Positions 7,317 to 17,087 of a stretch of DNA of 18,548 nucleotides are shown here, piece after piece. The first letter of the stretch is position 1; every line of letters begins with the position of its first letter. A program made the position numbers and the translations under genes. Under the pieces are notes generated by a model. That model did no database searches, was not told where the DNA came from, and worked only from the letters and a program-made list of their open reading frames with translations. Source of the stretch: Candidatus Omnitrophica bacterium UBA1443 (GTDB lineage Bacteria > Omnitrophota > Omnitrophia > Omnitrophales > Aquincolibacteriaceae); the NCBI GenBank assembly GCA_002329545.1, contig DCTJ01000038.1:7027-25574 (forward strand). Direction: 5' to 3'.

Positions 7317-8447
7317 ATGGATAAAAGAGTGGATACATTCAGGTCGGGCCCCTTTGTTTTCAGCTTGAATCATGACAGAAGAAAGCTGGGGGATAGCCTT
7401 ATTCGGGCAAAGGTGCAATTTCTTACCATTCGAGAGATCCCAATCCTCCCAAACTTGGCATCAAACATTGAAGACGACTTGATCCGAAAGTCGATTTTTG
7501 GAACGGCCGCGATCGAAGGAAATCCCCTTTCTGAAGAAGTAGTCAATCGGATTTTGACCGAAGAAGAAAAAAAGAAGACCACTCAAAAGGCGGAACGGCA
7601 AATTCAAAATCTCAAACACGCGTACGCGTTCATACGCGAAACACCCCAGTCGGAAACTCCCTTCTTGCTGGATGAGAAACTCATAAAAAAACTGCATTCA
7701 TTAATCACGGAGGGTTCGGAAGATGACAGGAATACACCGGGACAATACCGGGATCACTCCGTGAAAGTCGGCAATGAAGAGCATGGAGGAGTTTACACGC
7801 CCCCCAAAATTTTTGATGATATTAAAAATTTGATGAAGGAATTTATCAACTGGATCAATTCACCCGATGTTCTTCAGGAAGATCCCGTGATTCGAGCCGC
7901 ATGCGCTCATTATTATTTTGCCCTCATACACCCTTTTGGAGATGGGAACGGAAGGACGGCAAGAGCCATTGAGGCCATTCTGCTCAGAAGTTCGGGATTT
8001 CGATTTGTGTATAACATGCTTTCCAACTTCTATTACAAAAACATTGATGACTACTTTTGGTCATTTTCTTTGGCTGGACGAAACAAGGAGGGGGGCATTA
8101 CGCCTTTTTTGGAGTTTTTCCTAAAAGGGCTTCTTCTTTCCCTCGAAGAAATTCGACTACGAATTTTTTCTTTGATCAGAGAGTTTACTCTTAAAGACTA
8201 TTACGTCTTCCTTCAAAAGAAAAAAGCTATTACCCAACGGCAGTACGACTTGATGAATTTGTTAATCAAAACCAGAAAACAATTCACTCTAAAGGATCTT
8301 TTTGATGATGACCAGTTGAAAATCATCTACCGTAGCGTCACGGAAAGAACAGCGCGGAGAGATCTGAAAAATCTGACTGAACAGAGGCTATTGGGAGTCA
8401 ACCCCAAAACATCTCTGTATTTTCTCAACCCGCGCGTGATCGGATAA
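7317..8447 (+). CDS. fic: Fic-family AMP-transferase, N-terminal inhibitory motif, C-terminal winged-helix-like domain
   Basis: The 376-residue protein carries the complete Fic catalytic signature HPFGDGNGRTAR at 205-216: catalytic His205, the metal/phosphate-binding Asp-Gly-Asn-Gly loop, and Arg. It also has the inhibitory motif T63-AAI-E67-G68-N69, matching the (S/T)xxxE(G/N) consensus; in characterised class II Fic proteins this Glu blocks productive ATP binding. Known activity is transfer of AMP (occasionally another nucleotide part) from a nucleotide cofactor to hydroxyl side chains of target proteins. Residues about 305-361 form a C-terminal region that looks like a winged helix, as in SoFic-like proteins. 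No antitoxin partner lies beside it, consistent with inhibition in cis. The start ATG has no clear Shine-Dalgarno sequence. Base use is A+T-rich (21 G+C in 60 at 8221-8280) compared with its neighbours, suggesting horizontal acquisition. The target protein cannot be inferred. Confidence 0.92.
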   Translation: MDKRVDTFRSGPFVFSLNHDRRKLGDSLIRAKVQFLTIREIPILPNLASNIEDDLIRKSIFGTAAIEGNPLSEEVVNRILTEEEKKKTTQKAERQIQNLKHAYAFIRETPQSETPFLLDEKLIKKLHSLITEGSEDDRNTPGQYRDHSVKVGNEEHGGVYTPPKIFDDIKNLMKEFINWINSPDVLQEDPVIRAACAHYYFALIHPFGDGNGRTARAIEAILLRSSGFRFVYNMLSNFYYKNIDDYFWSFSLAGRNKEGGITPFLEFFLKGLLLSLEEIRLRIFSLIREFTLKDYYVFLQKKKAITQRQYDLMNLLIKTRKQFTLKDLFDDDQLKIIYRSVTERTARRDLKNLTEQRLLGVNPKTSLYFLNPRVIG

Positions 8448-13744: not shown

Positions 13745-13780
13745 CCATGACACTCGCGTGAGCGCGTGTCATGGTTTTTT
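13745..13780 (+). terminator. Strong Rho-independent terminator upstream of tRNA-Ser
   Basis: CCATGACAC (13745-13753) pairs perfectly over 9 bp with GTGTCATGG (13766-13774). After one mismatch three more pairs form, CGC (13755-13757) with GCG (13762-13764), closed by a GTGA (GNRA-type) tetraloop. Six T follow at 13775-13780. There is no T-run on the other strand, so it acts on plus-strand transcription. No obvious plus-strand gene ends here: the last one stops at 12323. It therefore either insulates the tRNA operon from antisense read-through or ends a short RNA. Confidence 0.85.
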
Positions 13781-13798
13781 GCCCCGAACATTTTAGCT

Positions 13799-13828
13799 TT
13801 GAAAGAAATAATCTCGGGCGCGTAAATT
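13799..13828 (+). promoter_or_regulatory. Candidate promoter for tRNA-Ser and the downstream operon
   Basis: TTGAAA (13799-13804), an 18 nt spacer and TAAATT (13823-13828) would start transcription near 13834. That is about 10 nt before the tRNA 5' end and just downstream of the terminator. This is the only plausible promoter seen between the terminator and the tRNA. Confidence 0.4.
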
Positions 13829-13843
13829 CAAAAAATGATTTTT

Positions 13844-13930
13844 GGAGAGGTGGCAGAGTGGTCGAATGCGGCAGTCTCGAAAACTGTTATACGCGCAAGC
13901 GTATCGGGAGTTCGAATCTCCCCCTCTCCG
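13844..13930 (+). tRNA. tRNA-Ser (anticodon CGA)
   Basis: The acceptor stem GGAGAGG (13844-13850) pairs with CCTCTCC (13923-13929), with G at 13930 as discriminator base. The anticodon arm has the loop CT-CGA-AA, reading UCG codons. The long variable arm (TACGC-GCAA-GCGTA) is typical of class II tRNAs, as expected for serine. The T arm is GGGAG-TTCGAAT-CTCCC. No 3' CCA is encoded. The gene ends only 11 nt before the start codon of the TPR protein, which suggests co-transcription with it. Confidence 0.95.
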
Positions 13931-13941
13931 ATGGTTTTTAC

Positions 13942-15270
13942 ATGACCATAAAAAGAAAACTGATCGTTTTTTGTTTCTGCCTGTTTCTTACCCCTTTCGC
14001 CTTTCCCTCTTTTTTGCGCGCCGAGATCATTCAGCTTAAAAACGGCAATGCCATGGAAACAAAAATTCTGAGAGAAGACGATGAGTTTGTCACGGTGGAG
14101 GCGGTCGGCGGCAAGGTCAAAATTCCCAAAAGGGACATCTCGAAAATATGGCGAGGATCGAAAGAGGAACTCGTCGAAATTTCCGCAAAGCGGGTTTTTT
14201 TCACCAAAGGGATGGAGCTTTATAAAGATGGACGGTTTCGGGAATCCGCGGAATCTTTTAAGCAATCACTCGGGCCCGCCGCTGGCAACGCGATCATCTA
14301 CGCCAATCTCGGAAGCGCTTACGCTTCCGCGGGTGAATTTCAAAAAGCCGAAACCAGTTTTCTGGAGTCTCTGAAGCAAAAACCCGACCATCCGGACATC
14401 CTGCTGAACCTTGCACGGTTGTATGAAGCTCAAAAAGAATATCAAAAGGCCGTGTTTTATTACTTAAAAACACTGAATCGAAGCGCCACAGATATGAGCG
14501 CACAGCGAAGTTTGGCTTACTGCTATTACATGAACGGGGATTATTTGAAAGCGGCGGAAACGTTTGGGGTCCTCGGAGAAAAAAATGATATTGTCTCCCG
14601 GTGTAACAGCGCGGCCGCTTACATCCAGGCGGGGGAACTGGACAGGGCCGAAGCCATTCTTAACGAAATGGCCGAGGACCCCTTTCCGGTGCCACGCGTG
14701 TATCTGAATATGGGAAATCTCTATTTTTTAAAGGGGGATCTGGTACGGGCGGAGCAATATTACCGGCAAGGATTGCAACGAGATCCGAAAACCGCGGAGA
14801 TCCACCAGATGCTGGGTGACCTGTATTTGCGTCTCGAACAGCCGGAAATGGCGCGACAACATTTTAAGGAAGTTCTTGAGAAAGACCCGAAGAATGGCTG
14901 GGCTATGGCAGGTTTGGCGCAGGCGCTTATTAAGGCTGAAGAATTTGAGAAAGCGGGAGATCTGTGCCATCAATTAGCGAGGGAGCATGCTGGTGATTCC
15001 CGCGTGTTAAATCGTGTGGGTTTGATGTATCTGAAAATAGGTAAGCCGGCCCTGGCGCTTGAGATTTTTAACACGCTGATTGCCCGGGATGAAAAAGACG
15101 CCAGGGCGCATTCAAACGCCGGGCTTGCTTATGTCATGAGGAATGATGCCGATAATGCCCTAAAGGCATGGACCCGGGCGCTGGAACTGGAGCCCGGGCT
15201 AGAATCTGCCCTGCAAAACAAAAAACTTCTGGAAGAAGCTTTAAGCGGAGAATCGATGGATGTCCAGTAA
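13942..15270 (+). CDS. Exported TPR-repeat protein
   Basis: The frame stays open back through the tRNA gene, but the first sensible start is the ATG at 13942, followed by a signal peptide (KRK, then a hydrophobic stretch, with likely cleavage after A27 in FLRA). The mature part begins with a small beta-rich segment (about 29-69, IIQLKNGN to KIPKRDISKI) resembling the short domains found at the start of many exported bacterial TPR proteins. Ten tandem tetratricopeptide repeats then fill residues about 87-437. TPR arrays bind proteins and scaffold assemblies, here presumably in the periplasm. There is no Shine-Dalgarno, because the preceding DNA is the tRNA acceptor stem. The 3' end overlaps the pilin-protease gene by 11 bp, so the two are probably coupled. 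It may be a scaffold for that pilin, but this is inferred from position only. Confidence 0.88.
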   Translation: MTIKRKLIVFCFCLFLTPFAFPSFLRAEIIQLKNGNAMETKILREDDEFVTVEAVGGKVKIPKRDISKIWRGSKEELVEISAKRVFFTKGMELYKDGRFRESAESFKQSLGPAAGNAIIYANLGSAYASAGEFQKAETSFLESLKQKPDHPDILLNLARLYEAQKEYQKAVFYYLKTLNRSATDMSAQRSLAYCYYMNGDYLKAAETFGVLGEKNDIVSRCNSAAAYIQAGELDRAEAILNEMAEDPFPVPRVYLNMGNLYFLKGDLVRAEQYYRQGLQRDPKTAEIHQMLGDLYLRLEQPEMARQHFKEVLEKDPKNGWAMAGLAQALIKAEEFEKAGDLCHQLAREHAGDSRVLNRVGLMYLKIGKPALALEIFNTLIARDEKDARAHSNAGLAYVMRNDADNALKAWTRALELEPGLESALQNKKLLEEALSGESMDVQ

Positions 15271-16426
15271 AAAGGGATTTACCCTGCTTGAAATTCTTAT
15301 AACGGCAGTCATTATTATCGTCCTGGCCGCTTTAGTGCTTCCCCGGGTACTGCATCAGGTCCGAAAAGCGGAGGAAGCAGAGGCTATCGTCAACCTTGGC
15401 GCGATTCGGCGCGCTCAATTGGACCTCCACGGAATATCGGGGCGGTTTGTCGAAGCGGCGGATGAAAAGGGTATTCAGGCGGCTCTCGGCCTTTCCATTT
15501 CGAACCTGATCTATGATTTCAAGATTATTGATGCGGACGAAGATAATTTTCTGGGCGTTGCCACGCCGATTGATGCGCTTGAAAATTGGCTCGAAGAGAT
15601 CAAGATCGATAAAGATGGATTTGTCGGATATCCCGGATATGGTGATGGAGGAGGCAATAGTGGCGGAAGCGGTGGCGGCAGTAGTGGCGGAGGATCCGGT
15701 TCCGGTGGCGGCTCAAGCGGTAGTGGAAGCGGAGGTGGGAGTGGTGGCGGTTCCGGGGGTAGTTATGGTGGTTCCAGCGCCAGAACACATAGCCTGCCAA
15801 CTGTAACCGAAACTGGGCCTGTTTTCACAGGGTATGCATCAGAAATACAATCTGTTTTAGATGTATTGGCAACTTCGACCGCGGCATTAAGTTCTCCCGC
15901 TGCAATCACAGGAGCAAATCTTGCTAACTTTTTGACGACGAACAAAATTTCCGTTACATTTGGAGATACTGAGGATAACATTTATGGGTATTGTAATTGG
16001 GATTCTGCCCATAAAAAACCTTACATCGTATTGAGTTCCAAGCTTAAATTAAACCAATATGTAGCCGCGGAAACTTTGGCGCATGAAACACTGCATGCTC
16101 TTTGGATTATTGATGATTTTAGGCATCTGACAACAGGGAGCCCTTATCAGTATGGCGTACCCAATGAAAAGTTCGGAGAGCTTCGAACATCGGTGTTTGG
16201 TGAAAATGGGAGTGATACAATCGATCACGAATATAACGCTTTTATAACAGGGGCACAAGTTTGGATGGATTTAAAGGCCAAGTACAATGTCTTTGACCCT
16301 AGCGGGTTAGGCTCTCGTAATGATAGTCAGATGAGTGTTTTTGCTTATGATGATGGTTCCTTGAAACCTGAAAGCGTTGCGAAGGCGAATATTCGCGCGT
16401 GGTACGGAAATCTACCGGAATATTGA
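15260..16426 (+). CDS. Type IV pilin-like protein fused to an HExxH putative metalloprotease domain
   Basis: The 388-residue protein starts with a classic class III prepilin leader, MSSKKG^FTLLE: Gly6 before the cleavage site, Phe at +1, Glu at +5, then a hydrophobic helix to about residue 30. Residues 31-127 look like a short pilin/pseudopilin domain. Residues 128-173 are a linker of 28 Gly and 15 Ser. The remaining 215 residues (174-388) hold AETLAHETLHALW, with the zinc-protease signature H275-E276-T-L-H279. Further on is DHEYNAF, whose Glu324 (or His323) could be a third ligand. The metzincin extension HxxGxxH is absent, so a gluzincin-like arrangement is more likely. Export and display by a type II secretion or type IV pilus machine is inferred. 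GGAG at 15247-15250 supports the start. No other pilus genes are in the window. Fold and activity of the C-terminal domain are unproven. Confidence 0.82.
   Translation: MSSKKGFTLLEILITAVIIIVLAALVLPRVLHQVRKAEEAEAIVNLGAIRRAQLDLHGISGRFVEAADEKGIQAALGLSISNLIYDFKIIDADEDNFLGVATPIDALENWLEEIKIDKDGFVGYPGYGDGGGNSGGSGGGSSGGGSGSGGGSSGSGSGGGSGGGSGGSYGGSSARTHSLPTVTETGPVFTGYASEIQSVLDVLATSTAALSSPAAITGANLANFLTTNKISVTFGDTEDNIYGYCNWDSAHKKPYIVLSSKLKLNQYVAAETLAHETLHALWIIDDFRHLTTGSPYQYGVPNEKFGELRTSVFGENGSDTIDHEYNAFITGAQVWMDLKAKYNVFDPSGLGSRNDSQMSVFAYDDGSLKPESVAKANIRAWYGNLPEY
15641..15778 (+). repeat. Low-complexity Gly/Ser linker coding tract
   Basis: This is a tract of GGN and AGT/AGC/TCC codons encoding 46 residues, of which 43 are Gly or Ser (exceptions Asp, Asn and Tyr). 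It separates the pilin stalk from the HExxH domain. Codons vary, so it is not a simple DNA microsatellite, but near-repeats of GGTGGCGG-like units could recombine and change the length. Confidence 0.9.
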
Positions 16427-16439
16427 AAAAGAGGTATTT

Positions 16440-17087
16440 ATGAGTTCAGAAAGAAAACCTCGGCATATTTTTTTGATTCTTTGCATAGTGACCATTGGCA
16501 CAATTATGGTTTTTACGGTGTTAAGATGGCTTCCAGTGAGTTTTGGAGCTCGAGGGCAACAGGAAATGAAATATCAAAATTTGGAAACAAAAAACCCCGT
16601 TCTTAATTTTTCATTTGAATATCCGGAGACTGGGTGGTTCCCGGTAGAGTCTACAGGTAGGATGGAAAAGTATGACATGGTCTATTTGCGAGGCCCCAGC
16701 AATGAGAAAAATGGTTTTACAACCATTATCGACGTGACCGTGAGGCCGCTTGAATCTGGACAAACTCCGCGGAGTCTTTTGGGAAAGTACCAAAAAATAG
16801 ATTCTAATCAGAACAAGTTCAATATTCTCCATGAGAAGAATATAACTGTTGGGGGTGAGAGAGCAGTTTTTGGTTTTTGTGAATATGAAACTCCCCCAAT
16901 TTATAGGGCGATGGAACCGGCCGTTTTACTTAAGAAAAGAATGGTTTTTCTAATCCGGAATGACCAATCTTATGGGATTACGATGCTGACCCTTGCTTCT
17001 GAAGATGAAAAATACACATCAACCTTCGAGCGTGTTTTAAAAACATTTCAATTCAAAAATGACGCGCAAAGTTCCAAGTTGGCTTGA
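16440..17087 (+). CDS. Membrane-anchored PsbP/Mog1-like hypothetical protein
   Basis: The start is the ATG at 16440, with AGAGG (16430-16434) just upstream; an upstream in-frame extension would run back into the pilin-protease gene. The 215-residue product has a short basic N-terminus, one membrane helix at about 10-31 with no signal-peptidase-like site, and an outside domain of about 180 residues. That domain has alternating strands and the pattern 'F-x-Y-P-x-x-W ... V-x-V-R-P-L ... L-x-K-Y ... G-G-x-x-A ... F-x-R-V-L-K-T-F-x-F', resembling PsbP/Mog1-fold (DUF1795-like) proteins. Those domains usually have no catalytic activity and serve as accessory or binding modules. It follows the pilin-protease gene by 13 nt and is A+T-rich like that gene's 3' half (15 G+C in 60 at 16561-16620). 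The fold assignment is tentative and the function unknown. Confidence 0.75.
   Translation: MSSERKPRHIFLILCIVTIGTIMVFTVLRWLPVSFGARGQQEMKYQNLETKNPVLNFSFEYPETGWFPVESTGRMEKYDMVYLRGPSNEKNGFTTIIDVTVRPLESGQTPRSLLGKYQKIDSNQNKFNILHEKNITVGGERAVFGFCEYETPPIYRAMEPAVLLKKRMVFLIRNDQSYGITMLTLASEDEKYTSTFERVLKTFQFKNDAQSSKLA

Follow-up and report, generated by a model that had tools for sequence, protein, structure and literature searches.

A modular pilin with a zincin-like domain and a PsbP-fold partner in Omnitrophota: a possible effector-immunity-like pair

Results

A modular pilin with a zincin-like C-terminal domain

We analysed a stretch of 18,548 nucleotides from Candidatus Omnitrophica bacterium UBA1443 (contig DCTJ01000038.1, positions 7,027 to 25,574), hereafter the window. 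It contains a 388-residue gene product, the pilin-zincin protein, in which a prepilin leader, a pilin module, a Gly/Ser-rich linker and a predicted zincin-like domain follow one another in one chain. The next gene encodes a protein with a predicted PsbP/Mog1 fold, the partner (Table 1). An earlier note on this DNA had proposed that the first gene encodes a metalloprotease displayed on a pilus, and had missed the second.

The open reading frame (ORF) had the frame and length given in that note. The leader bears the cleavage motif KKG^FTLLE that the note had recognized, and as MSSKKG^FTLLE it clears the Pfam N_methyl profile (22.6 bits, cut-off 21.2). A class III leader, a hydrophobic alpha1 and a predicted globular pilin fold were all found, as in type IV pilins. 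In the AlphaFold2 model, the pilin helix spans residues 9-60 and the linker is disordered, in agreement with the proposed flexible tether (predicted local distance difference test, pLDDT, below 50). The C-terminal domain was confidently predicted as the separate unit that the note had envisaged: pLDDT was at least 85 over residues 191-388, in ten-residue blocks, save for residues 301-320 (68), which form the loop preceding Glu324. Helix 266-292 carries HExxH (275-279), and Glu324 sits on helix 321-341. A pilin module is thus joined to a domain that is not peculiar to pili, which makes the protein a modular pilin.

HExxH was present in 42 of 46 proteins (the window query and 45 homologues). The other four were a 266-residue fragment on a 1156-base contig (P0014) and three proteins of 224-235 residues that consist of pilin and Gly/Ser linker without the domain (P0036, P0043 and P0044). 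In the 43-sequence alignment A4, from which these last three were excluded, H275, E276, H279 and E324 were invariant or nearly so. The earlier note had offered Glu324 or His323 as third ligand. His323 was ruled out, as it is not conserved; position 323 is usually Q, and Glu324 is therefore the better candidate. HExxH with a glutamate as third ligand points, by sequence and helix placement, to a zincin of the gluzincin type. Incidentally, the two longer homologues scanned (P0013 and P0038) showed an FN3-like insert ahead of the zincin domain, with sub-threshold Pfam matches. Searching the Protein Data Bank by sequence gave nothing meaningful (a single match, E 5). Against the putative metallopeptidase family Pfam DUF6782 (PF20573), the window domain scored 11.9 bits, under the cut-off of 27, and so falls outside that family, its kinship with DUF6782-type proteins emerging from profile comparison (see below). 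Collectively, these data make it virtually certain that the pilin-linker-zincin architecture is real, and a zincin-type metal site in the C-terminal domain is very probable from sequence and model. The domain would be expected to act as a peptidase.

The family in Omnitrophota carries two types of pilin leader

We searched 384 Omnitrophota genomes and found 37 members of the pilin-zincin family in 35 of them; all 37 have HExxH, with no filter applied. The domain profile A2, a 13-sequence alignment of the zincin domain, matched 28 genomes (29 matches). One match (G216/L041) does have HExxH but lacks leader, linker and partner; it was removed, leaving 28 members in 27 genomes. Nine loci came from named genomes: seven Omnitrophota/Omnitrophica, one Ca. 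Velamenicoccus archaeovorus and one metagenome-assembled genome of Longilinea (Chloroflexota).

A prepilin-type leader was recognized by motif in all 31 members with an assessable 5' end, 27 being type IV and four Flp/Tad-like. Leader and HExxH thus occur together in all 31. The type IV leaders (GFxxxE-type) were called by pattern in 24 cases and by eye in three (L053, L062, and L162 with Q for E). The Flp/Tad-like ones (second copy of L064, L077, L157 and L161) are motif calls, Pfam Class_IIIsignal reaching 14.6-19.5 bits in three (cut-off 23.7) and being absent in L077. Of the six remaining members, five are truncated at the edge of a contig; in L154, close to a contig start, the upstream frame is broken.

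Polymorphic toxins combine one carrier with varied C-terminal toxins. We sought such C-terminal swapping in the 384 genomes with A7, a profile built from the pilin modules of this family, and saw none. A7 matched 202 genomes, mostly weakly. Its 30 strongest matches (at least 79.8 bits) comprised 26 in ORFs bearing the HExxH domain and four cut by contig ends, and the 31st (71.3 bits) was an ordinary pilin next to a pilus-assembly gene. This indicated that the pilin carrier does not swap tails. P0048 gave no match among plasmid or phage records.

In the source genome, the only full-length match to the window gene was itself, five more matches being restricted to the pilin part. The same genome gave 13 N_methyl, seven T2SSE and two secretin matches, and one match to prepilin peptidase (Peptidase_A24), which indicates the presence of the enzyme only.

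A PsbP/Mog1-fold partner is encoded directly downstream

The partner gene of the window starts 13 nucleotides past the pilin-zincin stop, on the same strand. Its product was modelled with a pLDDT of 91, passes Pfam PsbP_2 (30.2 bits, cut-off 27; none of six other partners scanned did) and shows, in the model, the PsbP/Mog1 fold. Solved neighbours of this fold include the immunity proteins Tsi3 and Tli4/TplEi, the Eag effector chaperones and also non-toxin proteins.

A PsbP-like gene lay directly 3', on the same strand, in all 26 Omnitrophota members found with the protease profile for which 3' sequence exists. G005 and G360 end at a contig edge, and the G005 partner was found near the start of another contig. 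Before any profile was built, the window partner used as a single query already matched 22 of the 26 adjacent partners, at E values of 1.2e-4 or below in a set of 450 ORFs. Partner genes are scarce in the source genome, with a single one plus one further match of 18.7 bits, and the adjacency is therefore not due to abundance.

The reverse search, with the partner alignment A5 over the 384 genomes, gave 27 matches of at least 143 bits in 26 genomes, all of them in the protease set. This agreement is partly by construction, since A5 itself includes 23 of the 27 as rows; G005, G054, G154 and the second G075 copy are not among them. Nine matches that come next in score (82-111 bits, eight further genomes) are neither A5 rows nor in the protease list, and each has a family-type HExxH ORF immediately upstream. 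We left these nine pairs out as a test of adjacency, because adjacency was the way they were found. Under 70 bits there were 58 matches; the five looked at (G218, G019, G033, G324 and G120) were not beside such a protease, and two more adjoin known pairs, as a second tandem partner (G364) and as a 69-codon fragment (G012). At L155:4020-5203, one protease gene is followed by two tandem PsbP-like partners (108 and 41 bits), and at L065:4689-4895 a 69-codon partner-like fragment lies past the pair.

Among the 36 partners that belong to pilin-led members, a crude hydropathy/lipobox rule predicted an exported N-terminus for 33, and the remaining three (L156, L157 and L158) looked signal-like by eye. 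Hence, as in effector-immunity pairs, the cognate gene is directly downstream on the same strand, and its product is predicted to reside in the compartment where the effector would be exposed. We consider it highly likely that protease and partner work together, and the partner probably inhibits or neutralises the zincin. The same domain occurs behind both kinds of leader, and the partner is retained wherever it is visible; this suggests that selection keeps the pilin anchor itself.

Related domains outside pilins

Both leader and linker are missing from the Longilinea protein (L051). Its partner gene overlaps its stop by four bases and encodes no hydrophobic N-terminus. The window partner, as a single query, matched this partner (E 7.5e-6); the later A5 score is not independent, since the L051 partner is an A5 row. 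Searching with the Longilinea protein yielded 21 proteins, itself included. Among the free-standing relatives, four of the seven tested pass the DUF6782 cut-off, and the kinship of these relatives with the domain on the pilins was supported by hhalign (99.8%, E 2e-29). A search for free-standing relatives with A2 returned nothing; this search was insensitive, as P0003, which is within the length range, also failed to appear.

Out of 400 Chloroflexota genomes, 34 were matched, with up to six matches in one. Among the 30 loci listed, a partner was present within ~1.5 kb at two, L051 and L104/L122. L104/L122 is an Rhs core (TIGR03696, 57.4 bits) ending in the zincin domain (A6 42.0 bits; A2 31.7 bits); this ORF has no Pfam match and is truncated by a contig end. 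The gene downstream encodes a membrane-anchored PsbP-like protein (A5 52 bits, E 3e-15; PsbP_2 18.8, below cut-off). Toxin and immunity genes usually have this arrangement, in which an Rhs protein ends in an enzyme and the partner gene comes next. Further DUF6782-like ORFs were seen at L093-L121, 28 of the 30 listed loci having no PsbP partner nearby. P0059, with a DUF6782-type domain behind a long coiled-coil N-terminus, was considered as a toxin carrier and not used, its N-terminus fitting no recognised family.

Neighbouring genes

A tRNA-Ser lies inside the open frame 13771-15270 upstream of the pilin-zincin gene, and the TPR-repeat gene of that frame therefore begins later. Its stop overlaps the pilin-zincin start by 11 nucleotides. 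We rejected it as a general third component and regard it as accessory: a homologue of its N-terminal region occurred in seven of 41 loci (L052-L056, L060 and L065), some of the 41 being cut on the upstream side. About 7 kb upstream of the locus lies a gene for a Fic/DOC-family protein (PF02661, 73.6 bits), whose C-terminus gave a weak helix-turn-helix match.

Table 1. Features of the pilin-zincin locus and its surroundings, in window coordinates
Feature	Position	Strand	Remarks
Fic/DOC-family gene	7317-8447	+
tRNA-Ser (CGA)	13843-13931	+	within open frame 13771-15270
TPR-repeat gene	13942-15270	+	TPR_1 138.4 bits; start moved to ATG 3' of tRNA-Ser
Pilin-zincin gene	15260-16426	+	388 residues
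Prepilin leader MSSKKG	15260-15277	+	predicted cleavage before F7; E11 is mature +5
Pilin module, residues 1-127	15260-15640	+	alpha1 9-60 and small beta sheet
Gly/Ser-rich linker, residues 128-185	15641-15814	+	predicted disordered, pLDDT < 50; G/S-rich also in homologues and family members
Zincin-like metallopeptidase domain, residues 186-388	15815-16423	+	AlphaFold2; divergent relative of Pfam DUF6782
HExxH, H275-H279	16082-16096	+	sequence and conservation
Glu324, third-ligand candidate	16229-16231	+	invariant in A2, nearly invariant in A4
AGAGG, plausible ribosome-binding site of partner gene	16430-16434	+	inferred from sequence
Partner gene, proposed immunity/inhibitor protein	16440-17087	+	215 residues; hydrophobic N-terminal helix (7-30) and PsbP/Mog1 fold

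Discussion

The explanation that we favour, with modest confidence, is that the locus encodes an effector-immunity-like pair whose effector is a modular pilin, that is, a pilus-displayed zincin with a cognate immunity or inhibitor protein. It draws on the sequences, the conserved architecture and pairing, the predicted folds and the two motif-called leader types. In such a scheme, the pilin, handled by Sec and a prepilin peptidase, would come to sit in the inner membrane, its zincin domain projecting into the periplasm. The type IV machine, or Tad in relatives, would then carry the pilin outside, where the Gly/Ser linker would give reach and the HExxH/Glu zinc centre would cut proteins of a cell that is touched, at its surface or inside it. 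Within the producer envelope, the partner, anchored in the membrane or as a lipoprotein, would bind the zincin and block it until export, and would also protect against sibling cells. Use against other cells is the part that we put forward tentatively. The earlier interpretation of a pilus-borne protease is thus partly supported.

Four other explanations were weighed. The zincin could be a protease that serves nutrition or surface processing from pili or a pseudopilus; it would cut polymers outside the cell or surface proteins of the producer, without antagonism, and the PsbP-fold protein would be its envelope inhibitor. An anchored protease that crosses the periplasm would need an inhibitor whatever its purpose, and the fixed architecture without C-terminal swapping agrees with such a role. 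So do the 28 partnerless loci among the 30 listed in Chloroflexota, where four of the six relatives with N-termini inspected looked secreted or membrane-anchored by eye (L094, L095, L097 and L115). However, this explanation has difficulty with the leaderless Longilinea pair and with an Rhs-fused domain accompanied by a partner of the same family, and we regard it as unlikely.

It is quite improbable that the partner is instead an Eag-like chaperone or assembly factor of the modular pilin, the zincin domain acting at the pilus tip. The fold likeness to Eag proteins would fit, but these act in the cytoplasm, whereas partners of exported members bear a lipobox or hydrophobic N-terminus; moreover, the partner is retained in L051, where both proteins are leaderless. 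There is only a slim chance that the HExxH domain is another metal enzyme, such as an oxygenase, or a binding module rather than a peptidase. As for an ordinary structural pilin with HExxH by chance, P0036, P0043 and P0044 do show pilin and linker without the motif, but its conservation in every family member, an E324 invariant in A2 and an independent domain with its own predicted fold contradict this explanation, which is scarcely credible.

The type VI secretion system (T6SS) pairs Tse3-Tsi3 and Tle4-Tli4 (TplE-TplEi) likewise have an immunity protein of PsbP/Mog1-like fold. Effectors of the Tle4/TplE type are lipases. Tse3 is a T6SS-delivered muramidase, whereas here a zincin sits on a pilin. 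For Tsi3, both the PsbP/Mog1 likeness and a periplasmic role are in print, in the available text of PMC3792639. Zincin C-termini of Rhs polymorphic toxins (Tox-MPTase1-5) resemble our domain by layout, with HExxH at the Rhs C-terminus, and L104/L122 provides a homologous Rhs case. These toxins are tabled without an immunity partner, and the words 'pilin', 'prepilin' and 'pili' are absent from the available part of the main text (PMC3482391), whereas the present domain is pilin-carried.

Modular (bimodular) type IV pilins such as PilB and PilC of Streptococcus sanguinis also join a pilin module to a C-terminal functional domain for display, according to the accessible part of PMC8179133. Theirs is a short loop, ours a long Gly/Ser linker, and the DUF6782-related zincin, the dedicated downstream gene and the use of one module on two leader types set the present family apart. 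The earlier note knew of no named family with this layout. Since predicted S74 and M26 peptidase modules on modular pilins are already published (PMC8179133, same part), a protease-bearing pilin is not new as a kind. What stands is that an effector carried on a pilin and paired with an immunity gene of its own did not turn up in our literature search, which covered no preprints and only a minority of subscription papers. In Myxococcus xanthus, the Kil Tad-pilus tips, which serve contact killing and predation, likewise have minor pilins with extra domains at the fibre tip; the consulted portion of PMC12075869 mentions neither a cognate immunity gene nor a tip enzyme with HExxH.

Within Omnitrophota, Ca. 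Velamenicoccus archaeovorus is described, in the available portions of PMC10066038 and PMC13153191, as a predatory epibiont of a methanogen that expresses Tad and type IV pili; the former source places it in this phylum and ties both pilus types to attachment and predation in Omnitrophota predators. Strain LiM (L050, the same locus as L064, G075 C1:1630329-1634149) has two tandem protease-partner pairs, one type IV-led and one Flp/Tad-like. This links pilin-zincin pairs to predation by association only. With yet more reserve than for use against other cells in general, we propose that type IV and Tad pilins of Omnitrophota carry a toxin-type zincin, which a membrane-anchored PsbP-fold immunity protein neutralises at home, for contact-dependent predation on bacteria or archaea. 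If this were true, pilins would join the carriers of antagonistic enzymes, a function would be suggested for the PsbP-like proteins encoded 3' of such genes, and there would be a concrete candidate for how Omnitrophota predators damage their prey.
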